29,156 nt of DNA from a virus. Positions 817 through 25,332 of this stretch are shown here, in pieces. The DNA lies in IMG/VR virus record IMGVR_UViG_3300021373_001687, positions 1 to 29,156 of that record. One strand, 5' to 3'. The translations under genes were made by a program, and so were the position numbers. Within the stretch, counting starts at the first letter, position 1. Each line of letters begins with the position of its first letter. The notes beneath the pieces were generated by a model that made no database searches, was not told where the DNA came from, and saw nothing but the letters and a program-made list of their open reading frames with translations.

Positions 817-1242
817 TTAATTTGAGGTTAATAAATCTACTATGTGTTCGTACTTAGCTTCTAGTGTCATATACTTATCGTATAGTGTATCTAGTTTACC
901 TTGCACATTTTCATTTGAAGACTCATAGTCTTCAACAAACTTCTTTGACCTGTTGTATGTATTCATATACTTTCGGTCAGCCATACGATTGTCGTGACTC
1001 TCGACAAAGGTATGCACACCTTTATGGTCTGTATTTATAATACGACCAATCTCTCTTAGCCCGTAACCATATTCACTCAAGATAGAACAAATAACCGAAC
1101 GAGCCAACACAACTTCTTTCATCTTAGAGTTAGACAATATCTTAGCTAACTCAATTCCTGACGTTGCAGAAACTGCACTGAGCACTACATTCTCTAATCT
1201 ACTAAATGATGTCTGTGATTGCATTGTATGGTTTAAACTCAT
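817..1242 (-). CDS. DnaA domain IV-like DNA-binding protein 2 (141 aa)
   Basis: Residues about 44-85 resemble the C-terminal helix-turn-helix domain of DnaA: a helix containing ARSVICSIL, then GLREIGRIIN, then TDHKGVHTFVES, which matches the pattern of the DnaA signature GRDHTTVLHACRK. No AAA+ ATPase domain is present. The C-terminal half (about 90-141) is charged and helical, possibly coiled coil. The chosen ATG (MSLNHTMQSQ) overlaps the end of the RecE-like gene by 41 bp. A start 18 bp further in (MQSQ) or 33 bp upstream (MLTSMKNY) cannot be excluded. It is a likely sequence-specific DNA binder, perhaps acting at the phage control region. That role is inference. Confidence 0.65.
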   Translation of the reverse strand: MSLNHTMQSQTSFSRLENVVLSAVSATSGIELAKILSNSKMKEVVLARSVICSILSEYGYGLREIGRIINTDHKGVHTFVESHDNRMADRKYMNTYNRSKKFVEDYESSNENVQGKLDTLYDKYMTLEAKYEHIVDLLTSN

Positions 1243-1960
1243 TTTCAAAAAATAATTTTTCATACTTGTTAGCACTGTGGTTTAACTCCCATTCTCCTTG
1301 AGAGATAAACTCATCGCTACACTCAAATATCCCTACTTCATAAGGGAACTCCTTTTCTATTACAAGGAAGTAAAACTTATCTAAGTTAAACAACCTCATA
1401 TACAAAGCGGCTTGTTGGTTGTACAGCATCCATCTTGCAGAGCGTTTGAACTCGTCTAGAGTTTTTGCTGTAGTCTTCAAATCTACGATATATCTTTCTA
1501 TACCATTATCCACTATTGCATCCGCTTTACCTTTAACAGGTATGTGTAATCCTGATTCCGTTACATAGGTAGAAACTGCAGGAACTTCTGCCTCCCAAGA
1601 GGAAGTCATCAGTTCTGCAACCTGTGGTACATTGGATAGCTTATCAGCCATACTGTGTACCAAGTCATAGTCTTTAGACGGAAGTACAATCTTATCGAAG
1701 TGTTCAGCTTTGAACTCTTTGTAATCGTTACCACGTCTAGTTCCTTCCCAACGTATAGATACTTCTTTACCTTCTAGGAACAAGGCGTGTAGTGCAGAAC
1801 CTACATCGAAGAACGATGTGCTAGGGTAAGACCACTTGCCTTGTCTCCATAGATGAAACTTAGTAGGTGATTGTCGTAGTAGTTTGAAGGAACTATTAGA
1901 CATATATGACTTGTCGGCATAGTATGCCTCATCATCCTTAAACAATTCTACGTCACTCAT
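1202..1960 (-). CDS. RecE-like PD-(D/E)XK exonuclease
   Basis: This looks like a phage recombination nuclease of the RecE/exonuclease VIII type (PDDEXK-like, DUF3799-related). Landmarks are FDVGSALHALFLEG at about 51-64 (the GxxxH motif of this family), E124 in the AEVP segment, the GKADAIVD motif (D147), YIVDLKTT with the D160-x-K162 pair, and QQAALY at about 182-187 as the trailing helix. The length of 252 residues suits the nuclease domain alone. Such enzymes resect dsDNA 5' to 3' to give ssDNA for the partner annealase, encoded two genes upstream. The start overlaps the stop of the preceding small gene by four bases (ATGA), indicating translational coupling. Confidence 0.85.
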   Translation of the reverse strand: MSDVELFKDDEAYYADKSYMSNSSFKLLRQSPTKFHLWRQGKWSYPSTSFFDVGSALHALFLEGKEVSIRWEGTRRGNDYKEFKAEHFDKIVLPSKDYDLVHSMADKLSNVPQVAELMTSSWEAEVPAVSTYVTESGLHIPVKGKADAIVDNGIERYIVDLKTTAKTLDEFKRSARWMLYNQQAALYMRLFNLDKFYFLVIEKEFPYEVGIFECSDEFISQGEWELNHSANKYEKLFFENEFKPYNAITDII

Positions 1961-2742: not shown

Positions 2743-3198
2743 CTAAGCCACCTCAGCAGTTGGAATTGTCCACACCTTATTAACAAGCTTCCTGACTTGT
2801 TCTTCTGTAAACATATCCATAGCTCTTACAGAACGGAGGTGTTTATGCAGGTCATCCATTATCTGAGACTTGTTACTGATGTGTATATGCATATCCAAAG
2901 AGTATTCTCTGAATAGCTCTACCACACCACTGAAGATATACTCTGTATCTCTATCTCCAATGTCTAGTAAATTCCTTGTTGACTTCACACCGTGAATAAT
3001 GGTAGCGTGGTTCTTGTCAAACACATACCCTATCTCTTGGTAGGTTACACCATACTGAGTCTTGAGTATATAGTAGAAAGCATTACGAGCTGTAACTATG
3101 GAACGCCTTCGTGTCTTACTCATAAGGTCAACGTGGTATATCTCGTTGTACTTGTTGATAAGTCCTTGAATCATTTCACTTGAAATACTGATGTTCAT
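2743..3198 (-). CDS. DnaA domain IV-like DNA-binding protein 1 (151 aa)
   Basis: Residues about 33-80 match the DnaA C-terminal DNA-binding domain: ARNAFYYILKTQYGVTYQEIGYVF and then DKNHATIIHGVKSTRNLL, aligning to the DnaA signature (GRDHTTVLHACRKI) with the conserved His64 and Thr66. There is no Walker motif or AAA+ domain. Residues 80-151 are a separate helical extension with IHISNKSQIMDDLHKHL. It opens the DNA-metabolism operon, downstream of the AT-rich region at about 3.2 kb. It may bind phage repeats or DnaA-box-like sites and act as an initiator, helicase-loader adaptor or regulator. The domain call is firm and the role is inferred. Confidence 0.8.
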   Translation of the reverse strand: MNISISSEMIQGLINKYNEIYHVDLMSKTRRRSIVTARNAFYYILKTQYGVTYQEIGYVFDKNHATIIHGVKSTRNLLDIGDRDTEYIFSGVVELFREYSLDMHIHISNKSQIMDDLHKHLRSVRAMDMFTEEQVRKLVNKVWTIPTAEVA

Positions 3199-3232
3199 AT
3201 TATAATATATTATAAGTTATACTATTATTATA
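3199..3232 (-). promoter_or_regulatory. AT-rich candidate promoter with TTATACTATTATTATAA motif
   Basis: Between the hairpin at 3233-3259 and the start of the first DnaA-like gene lies a purely AT-rich leader. It contains the 17-mer TTATACTATTATTATAA (3217-3233), found again exactly at 8574-8590 in the divergent control region, and the palindromic TATAATATATTATA just before the gene. The position, after a terminator and before an operon start, suggests a promoter or operator for the DNA-metabolism operon. No TAnnTTTG box is seen here, so the polymerase specificity is unclear. Confidence 0.45.
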
Positions 3233-3259
3233 AGAGTATTCCCCTAAAGGGAATACTCT
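3233..3259 (-). terminator. Perfect 11-bp hairpin terminator between early operons
   Basis: AGAGTATTCCC (3233-3243) pairs perfectly with GGGAATACTCT (3249-3259) around a 5-nt loop. On the minus strand it follows the stop of the 53-residue gene by 7 bp and ends in a T/A-rich tail (TATAATAATAG) rather than a pure T run. It would separate the long small-gene operon from the DNA-metabolism operon, and could work in both directions. Confidence 0.65.
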
Positions 3260-3265
3260 ATACTA

Positions 3266-3427
3266 TTATATTAATAAGGTGTTTACCCATTCACTATACT
3301 GATAATCATCATCGTAGAATCTATCAGTGTCATCTCCCTTTAATCCATATTGTTCTTCCATTCTTGGTTGAGTTGTTGGATTAGTAATTGTCTGTCCGTT
3401 ACCTTTTTCATTTGTTTTGTTTTCCAT
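3266..3427 (-). CDS. Small acidic hypothetical protein (53 aa)
   Basis: The N-terminus (MENKTNEKGNGQTITNPTT) is polar and probably disordered. It is followed by an acidic, aromatic segment with KGDDTDRF, YDDDYQYSEW and the ending VNTLLI. It begins 20 bp inside the end of the preceding 35-residue gene, in another frame, and ends seven bases before a strong hairpin terminator, consistent with the last gene of the small-gene operon. The family is not recognised. Its compactness and acidic charge are typical of small phage host-interaction proteins, but that is only analogy. Confidence 0.55.
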   Translation of the reverse strand: MENKTNEKGNGQTITNPTTQPRMEEQYGLKGDDTDRFYDDDYQYSEWVNTLLI

Positions 3428-7994: not shown

Positions 7995-8171
7995 TTATTT
8001 CCATGATAGTTTGTACAAATCATCCCACCTTTGACTCAAAGTATCATAGTAGTCAAATAAAGATTCACGGACGTCCGTATCATTGAAGTCTGTTTTCTCA
8101 ATGATAGACGTTACTCTTTTCATATCGTCTAACAATACTTGCATCATTTGTACTACCTGTTCTCTTTTCAT
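7995..8171 (-). CDS. First early gene, helical hypothetical protein (58 aa)
   Basis: This is the first leftward gene next to the divergent control region, so it is probably transcribed earliest. It begins MKREQVVQMMQVLLDDMKRV and continues SIIEKTDF, then an acidic, aromatic helix (VRESLFDYYDTLSQRWDDLY) ending KLSWK. The whole product looks like two amphipathic helices. The leader before ATG is A/T-rich (AAAAATTATACAA), with no Shine-Dalgarno motif. A regulator or host-binding peptide would suit the position, but no family is recognised. Confidence 0.6.
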   Translation of the reverse strand: MKREQVVQMMQVLLDDMKRVTSIIEKTDFNDTDVRESLFDYYDTLSQRWDDLYKLSWK

Positions 8172-8256
8172 TTGTATAATTTTTATTTGTACATATAACC
8201 GAGCCTCTATCCTTATTGGCTACGCCACTAAGATATATAAAAAATAGTGGTGTAAT

Positions 8257-8289
8257 GTTAAGTTAAGGTTAAGTTAATGTTAAGCCAAT
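8257..8289 (+). repeat. Three tandem 11-bp repeats (iteron-like)
   Basis: GTTAAGTTAAG (8257-8267), GTTAAGTTAAT (8268-8278) and GTTAAGCCAAT (8279-8289) follow one another without spacing. A degenerate fourth unit GTTACCAATCG (8290-8300) continues the series. The 11-bp period is close to one helical turn, so a protein would see each copy on the same face of DNA. Such arrays are typical of replication iterons or operator clusters. Confidence 0.75.
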
Positions 8290-8300
8290 GTTACCAATCG

Positions 8301-8336
8301 TAAGATATAGGCAAAGATTGATAAGATTTGGGCAAA
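8301..8336 (+). repeat. 15-bp direct repeat pair, 21-bp spacing
   Basis: TAAGATATAGGCAAA (8301-8315) and TAAGATTTGGGCAAA (8322-8336) match at 13 of 15 positions and start 21 bp apart, two helical turns. The pair abuts the 11-bp tandem repeats, so the two arrays may form one protein-binding platform. Confidence 0.65.
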
Positions 8337-8487
8337 AAAATGTGAAAAATTGCTTGGTAGTGTCAAATTTTTTTACGTGACCGACCATTTTGGAAAGTTC
8401 TCTGAAGCTAACCTCTCGGAGGGGGGAAGGGGATTTGGATAATGAATGGTGTTTAGTGGGTAGTTCGCAATTCACTATTTGAACACA

Positions 8488-8506
8488 TACTATTATAATA
8501 ATAGTA
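8488..8506. repeat. Perfect AT-rich palindrome
   Basis: TACTATTAT and ATAATAGTA form a perfect 9-bp inverted repeat around a central A. Its left arm is part of the recurring ATACTATT motif of this region. It could be a dimeric operator or part of a DNA-unwinding element. Confidence 0.65.
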
Positions 8507-8533
8507 GAAGAGTAAAGTAATACTATTATTATA

Positions 8534-8560
8534 ATACTCTCTCTTTATTAGAGAGAGTAT
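8534..8560 (+). repeat. 10-bp inverted repeat, hairpin
   Basis: ATACTCTCTC (8534-8543) and GAGAGAGTAT (8551-8560) are perfectly complementary around TTTATTA. It lies between two copies of the ATACTATTATTATAA motif. It is not followed by a T run, so a regulatory or origin structure is as likely as a terminator. Its left half is nearly the same as the minus-strand hairpin arm at 7651-7668. Confidence 0.6.
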
Positions 8561-8573
8561 ACTATTTATTAGT

Positions 8574-8590
8574 TTATACTATTATTATAA
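8574..8590 (+). promoter_or_regulatory. Copy of shared TTATACTATTATTATAA motif
   Basis: This 17-mer is identical to 3217-3233, and its 15-nt core ATACTATTATTATAA occurs again at 8520-8534. Shorter variants (ATACTATT plus AT-rich sequence) are at 3260, 8487 and 8559. All copies lie at operon boundaries, which suggests a binding site for a phage regulator or a phage-specific promoter element. Confidence 0.5.
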
Positions 8591-8597
8591 AGGGGGA

Positions 8598-8634
8598 GTT
8601 GATTATGAATTAAACATTCATTATTGTATATTTG
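8598..8634 (+). promoter_or_regulatory. Candidate Bacteroidota-type promoter for the late genes
   Basis: TATATTTG at 8627-8634 fits the Bacteroidota -7 consensus TAnnTTTG and sits 14 bp before the first late ATG. A GTTG at 8598-8601 could serve as the -33 element, although the spacing is a few bases longer than usual. Transcription would begin near 8638, leaving a very short leader with the GGAAGG ribosome binding site. Confidence 0.45.
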
Positions 8635-8648
8635 ATAAAAAGGAAGGT

Positions 8649-8930
8649 ATGAATACTGAGGAATTGTTTTATGAACTAGCAGGTAGGGGGAGAGTTCCTA
8701 GTGGGGAGTTGCGTGAGGCGATGTTTGAGTTCCATAATAGTATGGTGGGCAAGAGTAAGTATATCAAGAGGACTGAGAATCCAAAGACGAGGTGTGGTAG
8801 TTGTATACAGAGGGTGATGAGGAATGTATTTAATTGGTATCACTTTGACGAGGGTGCACCGACTTATGAGGGCATATACTTCTCAGGTAAATTCGGTATT
8901 GGTAACATACCTCTTTACAAACGTAAATAG
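8649..8930 (+). CDS. First late gene, small Cys-pair protein (93 aa)
   Basis: The ATG is preceded by GGAAGG, one of the few clear Shine-Dalgarno sites in the window. The protein is helical at the N-terminus (TEELFYELAGRGRVPSGELR), has a basic central part (SKYIKRTENPKTRCGSCIQR) with a Cys-x2-Cys pair at about 49-52, and an aromatic C-terminus. A single CxxC could be half of a zinc site or a redox pair. It stands nine bases upstream of the small terminase gene, so it may act in packaging or late regulation. The family is not recognised. Confidence 0.65.
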   Translation: MNTEELFYELAGRGRVPSGELREAMFEFHNSMVGKSKYIKRTENPKTRCGSCIQRVMRNVFNWYHFDEGAPTYEGIYFSGKFGIGNIPLYKRK

Positions 8931-23043: not shown

Positions 23044-23613
23044 ATGGCATTTAACTGTTCGGTAGCACTAGCTAACTTAGACATAAATTGTTTAAGTAAA
23101 AATAACGGAGGTATTAAGCGTGTAGTTCTCGGCTTAAAAGAAGACCTTTCTTTATCTTTAGATACATCCGAAGAAAATGTTTTATTAAGTTTAACTCTTT
23201 CTGAGTTTGTTGTTTTTGAGCACAATAAAAAAGATGGTGCGACATACTTCAGGGAAACGAAGTCAACAGAACAAGGAAATGGAGTTGTAAATACAGAGAT
23301 ATTAGTTCGTCTTCCTGCTATTGATAGTAAGATTAATAAGATAGAACAAATGTCTTATAGAAACGATATTGTTTGTATATTATATCACAACAATGATTCT
23401 GTTACAGTAAGTGGTTGGAAAAGAGGTTTAGATATGAATTACAGTGCTTCAAGTGGTTCTTCAATATCTAACATTTCTTACGTTGATGTAACTTTATTTG
23501 GAGAATCTTGGTATTCTTCTTTAACTACAACAGATGAATCTATTATAGCTTTAGGAGCACCTTGGGCTAGTACAAACACAGTTTGGAGCAACACAAATAT
23601 TATTTGGTCGTAA
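23044..23613 (+). CDS. Tube-like structural protein, paralog 2 (189 aa)
   Basis: It begins MAFNCSVALANLDINCLSKN with the same Cys spacing as paralog 3 (MAFNCSILLSDIDINC), followed by a GGIKRVVLGLKEDL segment, the KDGATYFRETKS strand, VNTEILVRLPAIDSKINKIE, and the NNDSVTVSGWKRGLDMNY motif. A C-terminal extension rich in Ser, Thr and Trp (GAPWASTNTVWSNTNIIWS) is absent from the others and may contact the neighbouring fibre-like protein. The product is likely a virion component related to the tail tube. It ends on the first base of the next ATG. Confidence 0.6.
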   Translation: MAFNCSVALANLDINCLSKNNGGIKRVVLGLKEDLSLSLDTSEENVLLSLTLSEFVVFEHNKKDGATYFRETKSTEQGNGVVNTEILVRLPAIDSKINKIEQMSYRNDIVCILYHNNDSVTVSGWKRGLDMNYSASSGSSISNISYVDVTLFGESWYSSLTTTDESIIALGAPWASTNTVWSNTNIIWS

Positions 23614-24804: not shown

Positions 24805-25332
24805 ATGGCTTTTAACTGTTCTATACTATTAAGTGACATTGATATTAACTGTAACAAACGTGTTTCAGGTGGTATTGAAAAAGTTATTCTTTTATTACAG
24901 GATGACTTAACTGTTACGTTTGACCCCAACGATGAGACTGTAGTAACGCAAGTAGGTACAAATAACACTGTTGTTTTTTCTCATAATATAAAAGACGGTG
25001 TAACTTCTTTTGATGAAAACAAAAGTATATCTAACGCCCTTGGCATAGTAACTACCAACATCATTGTTCAGCTACCTTCTGTTGATAATAAGATTAACAA
25101 GCTTGACTATATGAGCAGAAGAGAAGACATTGTAGCTATCCTAGTTCACAATAATGATTCTGTTACTATCTCAGGATGGAAGGATGGTTTAACAATGAAC
25201 TATGAAGCTAACAGTAGTGCAGGACCTTCTGATAAGTCATATGTAAATGTTGCGCTAACTACTCAAAGCAGTAAGGCTTCATTAGCATTAGACGATAAGA
25301 CCGTGTTTACAGACCAAACAATTTTTGATTAA
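24805..25332 (+). CDS. Tube-like structural protein, paralog 3 (175 aa)
   Basis: The order of motifs repeats that of paralog 2: MAFNCSILLSDIDINCNKRV, GGIEKVILLLQDDLTVTF, IKDGVTSFDENKSISNALG, NIIVQLPSVDNKINKLDYMS, and NNDSVTISGWKDGLTMNYEA. The short C-terminus ends KTVFTDQTIFD. This suggests a duplicated gene that kept the fold. It follows the fibre-like gene by four bases, so the pair may assemble together, for instance at the tail tip or as an alternative tube ring. The role is inferred. Confidence 0.6.
   Translation: MAFNCSILLSDIDINCNKRVSGGIEKVILLLQDDLTVTFDPNDETVVTQVGTNNTVVFSHNIKDGVTSFDENKSISNALGIVTTNIIVQLPSVDNKINKLDYMSRREDIVAILVHNNDSVTISGWKDGLTMNYEANSSAGPSDKSYVNVALTTQSSKASLALDDKTVFTDQTIFD

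Follow-up and report, generated by a model that had tools for sequence, protein, structure and literature searches.

Plasmids that replicate by the theta mode from iterons, such as pSC101 and R6K, have an autoregulated initiator; their origins contain repeats, and a related element lies at the gene for the initiator itself. The locus described here is similar in having repeats in the proposed origin region and a related element at the gene of the proposed initiator. It differs in that the element common to both sites consists of AT-rich boxes around a hairpin, whereas the direct iterons are neither shared between the sites nor conserved. The closest analogue among phages is the Bacillus phage SPP1, the sole useful parallel that was found in the literature on phage DnaA-like origins. 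Its initiator G38P acts with two origins, oriL and oriR, and theta replication proceeds from oriL (PMC5615212). SPP1 uses a phage helicase together with the primase and clamp loader of the host, and concatemers are formed later by recombination (PMC5615212). The likeness lies in the layout, i.e., a phage initiator with two sites and early genes that also include a helicase, an annealing protein and an exonuclease; membership of the SPP1 group is not claimed. In contrast to SPP1, the protein in the present phages resembles DnaA domain IV, the second site lies before the terminase genes, and the boxes and the hairpin are of another kind. Bacterial DnaA and oriC are a third point of comparison. 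The phage protein has the fold of DnaA domain IV and the NHAT recognition motif, but it lacks the AAA+ ATPase domain, and DnaA boxes (TTATNCACA) occur at the level of chance, with neither enrichment nor clustering at the origin. Stand-alone DnaA_C proteins, about 31–34% identical over the domain, are also encoded by the Pelagibacter HTVC and Greip phages and by the Cellulophaga phages phi46:3 and phi19:3, although a matching pair of sites is absent from Greip.

The DNA that was analyzed, hereafter the window, is a virus record of 29,156 bases. A TerL search of IMG/VR yielded 80 relatives, all uncultured, with a TerL identity of 70–89%; the near-complete ones measure approximately 37–39 kb. Among isolated phages there was no match at the DNA level, the 93-aa protein described below had none in GenBank phages, and TerL found distant matches only, so that no close relative was found in GenBank phages. 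Neither prophages nor close relatives were found among bacterial genomes sampled at one per species, and the window contained no matches to Rfam families and no tRNA. A Shine–Dalgarno-like leader precedes only 7 of 41 genes, and this scarcity fits a host that probably belongs to the Bacteroidota. The intergenic region of 478 bp at 8172–8648 parts the leftward early and replication genes, which end at 8171, from the rightward late operon, which begins at 8649. On the left side, the window or a relative encodes exonuclease VIII, a DnaB-like helicase (seen in a relative) and two DnaA_C proteins. An Erf-type annealing protein was found in a relative, and the window protein at 2160–2693 matches families of unknown function. 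Since no DNA polymerase was present among the phage proteins examined, the phage likely recruits the polymerase of its host. Elsewhere in the window, the similar proteins encoded at 23044–23613 and 24805–25332 (MAFNCSVALANLDINC and MAFNCSILLSDIDINC) stand on either side of another structural gene and apparently reflect a duplication.

The conserved portion of the intergenic region lies just to the right of a set of direct repeats, and these iterons fall outside it. Common to the relatives upstream of the 93-aa gene are TGACCG, a GCTAACCTCTCGGAGCGGGGGGAAGG-like sequence, AT-rich boxes with a hairpin, and CATTCAnnATTGTATATT. In the window, this core spans 8378–8648 and is followed by the first late gene:

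8378–8383, plus strand: TGACCG, left edge of the core, from the alignment of relatives and found in most other lineages too.
8407–8432, plus strand: G-rich motif GCTAACCTCTCGGAGGGGGGAAGGG, recognizable in every lineage examined.
8488–8506, no strand assigned: AT-rich near-palindromic box 1, TACTATTATAATAATAGTA, from the sequence.
8521–8536, no strand assigned: AT-rich box 2, TACTATTATTATAATA, from the sequence.
8534–8560, no strand assigned: hairpin with an 11-bp stem and a 5-nt loop, its pairing kept while the stem sequence varies.
8575–8590, no strand assigned: AT-rich box 3, TATACTATTATTATAA, from the sequence and the alignment of relatives.
8605–8634, plus strand: inverted repeat ATGAAT/ATTCAT and, after it, TTGTATATTTG, both conserved in relatives; candidate late promoter or operator of the gene at 8649.
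8649–8930, plus strand: protein of 93 aa encoded by the first gene of the late operon, which adjoins the terminase genes and occurs in 68 of 80 loci.

The boxes and the hairpin are under different constraints. In almost every relative of group A, box 1 and box 2 are spaced by 33 bp, and the boxes are constrained in sequence, whereas the sequence of the hairpin stem is free. Among nine distinct group-A stems of equal length at the core, pairing is kept at 100%, with compensatory changes at five of the nine pairs and none broken. The box-hairpin element as a whole folds much more stably than shuffled DNA, with a z of -5.3. The AT-rich palindromes that the first-pass annotation had noted to the right of the repeats are real, and they turn out to be the part that matters. 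Between boxes 1 and 2, the segment AGAGTAAAG (window 8504–8520) is reverse-complemented to CTTTACTCT in many relatives, such as the cores of L021, L025 and L029. With the 33-bp spacing of the boxes unchanged, this flip appears to be a loop inversion between inverted repeats.

The window contains a second copy of the box-hairpin element of 8487–8592, at 3198–3273, and each of the two has the hairpin. In the window, boxes of the TATTATAATA type cluster at 8491–8589 and at 3198–3273 only, with 13 matches, a number equalled in none of 100 shuffles. The second site coincides with the start codon of a DnaA-like gene:

817–1275, minus strand: DnaA-C2, second DnaA-domain-IV-like protein, from Pfam; most long relatives also have a second copy.
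2743–3198, minus strand: DnaA-C1, DnaA-domain-IV-like protein and proposed binder of the element (Pfam Bac_DnaA_C, E 4.5e-14).
3198–3273, no strand assigned: second copy of the box-hairpin element, with its hairpin at 3233–3259, located where the DnaA-like gene begins.

The pairing of the two sites is general among the relatives. Each of 35 records, 33 of which have a DnaA-C1 gene, was searched with its own terminase-side core. The best match in the genome lies immediately upstream of the DnaA-C1 gene in 31 of the 33, counting some lineages in which one sigma-like gene stands between the site and DnaA-C1. In the two exceptions, extra genes intervene (G006) or the site and the called start codon overlap (L046), and the two fragments without a DnaA-C1 gene have no dnaA-side site. 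The DnaA-side match scores at least twice as high as the next best place in 13 of the 15 genomes compared, with weaker matches in G002 (19 vs. 14) and in the window (16 vs. 10). The same element is thus found at the control region and at the gene of the proposed initiator, as in an SPP1-like two-site arrangement. As a separate observation, the gene between the second site and DnaA-C1 in L025 (3057–3785, approximately 240 aa) has a weak match to sigma-70 region 4; it has homologues in L010, L016, L028 and L033 and is absent from the window.

The sequence of the boxes varies by lineage, with TACTATTATTATAATA, CTATATAGGGTATACTATATAG, TATATACTTAGTATATA, ATATTACTAATATAAGTAATAT and others, and the two copies diverge jointly. 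Across 21 distinct records, the similarity between the two copies of one genome is 0.087, against 0.038 after permutation (permutation P 5e-5; Mantel r 0.71), although the k-mer sharing on which these values depend is inflated by AT-rich sequence. In several group-A records, including the window, the genome's own site is equalled or surpassed as a match by that of another record. Shared ancestry alone is insufficient to explain why two separate sites in one genome change alike, which points to a common binding protein. To judge from the sequences, the joint divergence would fit any protein that binds both sites.

DnaA-C1, the candidate for this role, is assigned to DnaA domain IV by its match to the DnaA_C HTH family and by its fold. 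A profile of the family retrieves DnaA domain IV from the PDB (1j1v, E 2.7e-11). The AlphaFold2 model has a mean pLDDT of 77.5, and its best fold matches are 3pvp and 1j1v, with Foldseek E-values of only about 0.01–0.03. The protein of 151 aa matches DnaA_C only, and an AAA+ ATPase domain was not found in it. DnaA-C1 diverges fast, being 15–23% identical to the copies in relatives, compared to 71–88% for TerL, which would be in keeping with a changing target sequence. A scan for loci with DnaA-C1 alone returned none, probably because the protein diverges too fast. A relation between the residues of the recognition helix and the type of box was also considered; the correspondence is loose and suggestive, with G002 as a clear exception, and it was not retained.

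Strand asymmetry provides a further line of evidence. The first-pass annotation, which likened the region to a replication origin or a multi-site operator, had proposed GC skew as a check. The skew of the window does have its minimum at approximately 8.4 kb, but this coincides with the switch in gene strand; at the core, raw GC skew and gene direction change together, both in this record and in the long relatives. The skew of the window alone was therefore rejected as evidence for an origin, as it tracks the gene strand. The relatives are more informative. Third-position skew was measured in eight records from a few related lineages, the window not among them, that carry plus-strand genes to the left of the core. 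Most of these left genes were verified as conserved proteins with an excess of third-position differences, a few entries having no cross-lineage match. In all eight records, the third-position coding-strand skew of the left plus-strand genes is negative (-0.09 to -0.37), while that of the 93-aa gene and terL on the right is positive (+0.11 to +0.29; Fisher P 1e-3 to 2e-8), with the caveat that expression may be different for genes on the left side. The GP88 gene offers a natural inversion: its skew is +0.30 in the window, where it lies on the minus strand, and -0.27 to -0.34 in four relatives where it has kept its side of the core but lies on the plus strand. Together with the agreement among the eight records, this indicates that the skew follows the side of the core and not transcription. 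Strand asymmetry that switches independently of gene direction, as looked for in a two-site phage origin, was thus found in eight of eight records. It supports divergent replication that would start near the core, the exact site lying beyond the resolution of the skew.

Taken as a whole, we consider the chances about even that the main function of the core is that of a replication origin with a cognate phage DnaA-like initiator. DnaA-C1 (2743–3198) would bind the AT-rich boxes flanking the hairpin in the core at 8378–8648, which would contain the origin, open the DNA, and recruit the phage DnaB-like helicase along with the polymerase of the host. The other copy of the element, located where the DnaA-C1 gene begins, could then serve in self-control of its synthesis or as a second origin. 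Against initiation by such a protein stands the role of the ATPase domain in the melting of bacterial origins, a domain that the DnaA-like proteins alone do not have.

The same pair of sites could instead serve transcription. The box-hairpin elements would in that case be promoter or operator sites, the DnaA-like protein a transcription factor for its own replication operon and for the late operon, and the origin would lie elsewhere. Both copies do directly precede operons, i.e., the late genes from 8649, and DnaA-C1 with the replication genes from 3198. A gene resembling sigma-70 region 4 adjoins the second site in some lineages, and the conserved inverted repeat with TTGTATATT before 8649 is promoter-like. 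The repeat and TTGTATATTTG at 8605–8634 presumably resemble the Bacteroidota -7 box, TAnnTTTG; this stretch is a candidate late promoter or operator. However, in lineages whose genes run in one direction on both sides of the core, the third-position skew still changes sign there, which points to replication, and a hairpin with a free stem sequence is unusual for an operator. We regard a purely transcriptional role as possible but rather unlikely.

It is a good deal less probable that the element is a packaging signal (cos or pac) for the neighboring terminase. Immediately downstream of it come the 93-aa gene, the probable small terminase gene and terL, and the conserved G-rich motif precedes it; the 93-aa protein itself was without a match in Pfam, in PHROGs and among phage records. 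In addition, an exact terminal repeat of 345 bp (L033/G006) ends exactly before CTAACCTCACTGAGCGGGGGG, which may be a packaging end. On the other hand, the boxes are also present at the dnaA-like gene, contig ends are scattered, and the near-complete G010 has its end repeat elsewhere. Clustered contig ends were considered as a sign of cos and were not convincing, as there is no single point of clustering. The G-rich motif alone could be related to packaging.

The remaining question is what the direct repeats to the left of the core contribute:

8253–8293, no strand assigned: 11-bp tandem array, with three copies followed by a degenerate one; specific to the lineage and a candidate operator for the early genes on the left.
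8301–8337, no strand assigned: two copies of TAAGATnTnGGCAAA, 21 bp apart and 13/15 identical (P about 0.0075 to 0.04); not conserved among relatives.

Three 11-bp repeats with a degenerate fourth had been described before, and their presence is far beyond chance. The units are GTTAAGTTAAG (8257–8267), GTTAAGTTAAT (8268–8278), GTTAAGCCAAT (8279–8289) and the degenerate GTTACCAATCG (8290–8300). With a TRF score of 61, the array is the top tandem repeat in the window. Its self-match score of 20 at period 11 was reached in none of 200 full 29-kb sequences simulated with an order-2 model (maximum 15) and in none of 2000 simulations of the 478-bp intergenic region. The 15-bp pair, likewise described earlier, consists of TAAGATATAGGCAAA at 8301 and TAAGATTTGGGCAAA at 8322. 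It is much weaker, with P approximately 0.0075 for period 21 alone and approximately 0.04 for any helical period, and it is lineage-specific, not being conserved among the aligned relatives.

The first-pass annotation likened these repeats to a replication origin or a multi-site operator and named the DnaA-domain-IV-like proteins of the phage as candidates for binding them. As in an iteron-type origin, regularly spaced direct repeats of one helical turn do stand beside an AT-rich region in a divergent control region. In contrast to such origins, the repeats are not conserved among replicons that share the initiator: a significant tandem array was found at this position in 4 of 41 testable records, with periods of 11 bp (window), 21 bp (L008) and 17 bp (L011 and L020). 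Among the relatives with a preserved core and DnaA-like genes, most have no such array or a different repeat in its stead, and nothing similar to it occurs at the dnaA-side site. Because both sets of direct repeats are confined to single lineages or a few, and the DnaA-like gene is tied to 8487–8592 and 3198–3273, the proposal is supported for the control region as a whole and not for the repeats it named; the region was right and the reason partly wrong. That the 11-bp repeats are the binding sites of the initiator therefore seems improbable to us.

The turnover of the repeats is visible between close relatives. The window and L008, whose TerL proteins are 88% identical, share the flanks GTGGTGTAAT and TTACCAATCG, and the repeats in between differ, which would look like a fast-changing operator or drifting repeats. 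L006 retains four copies of TTAACATT. There is no wider enrichment of this single motif in the relatives, a few of which have single copies in the opposite orientation. In L011, L014, L020, L024 and L026, arrays of the 17-bp TTGCTAAAAATATTAGA, themselves overlapping inverted repeats, lie upstream of TGACCG in place of the iterons of the window. Long C-/A-rich low-complexity stretches lie left of TGACCG in L053, L069, L079 and L084, in phages that are otherwise AT-rich. The 11-bp repeats are probably a fast-evolving operator for the leftward early genes. Array and pair would together form a quickly evolving accessory at the left edge, at the leftward early promoter, and the iterons may act as an operator whether the main function of the region is that of an origin, a transcriptional switch or a packaging signal.

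As first described, the array was one more iteron-like repeat; the conserved pair of sites is more useful. It predicts an origin, the protein that binds it and several matching specificity pairs, in a phage group without a cultured member that was found here. We tentatively suggest, at somewhat less than even confidence, that these uncultured phages, probably of Bacteroidota, form a family with a stand-alone DnaA-domain-IV initiator devoid of the DnaA ATPase. The boxes on either side of the conserved hairpin, present once at the terminase-side origin and once by the initiator gene, would have changed in concert, giving at least five types of sequence and an initiator–origin specificity series comparable to plasmid incompatibility groups. 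The co-evolution of initiator and origin, and the working of a DnaA domain IV protein without an ATPase, become directly testable in this group, which also offers a clean case for separating the effects of replication and transcription on GC skew in phages.
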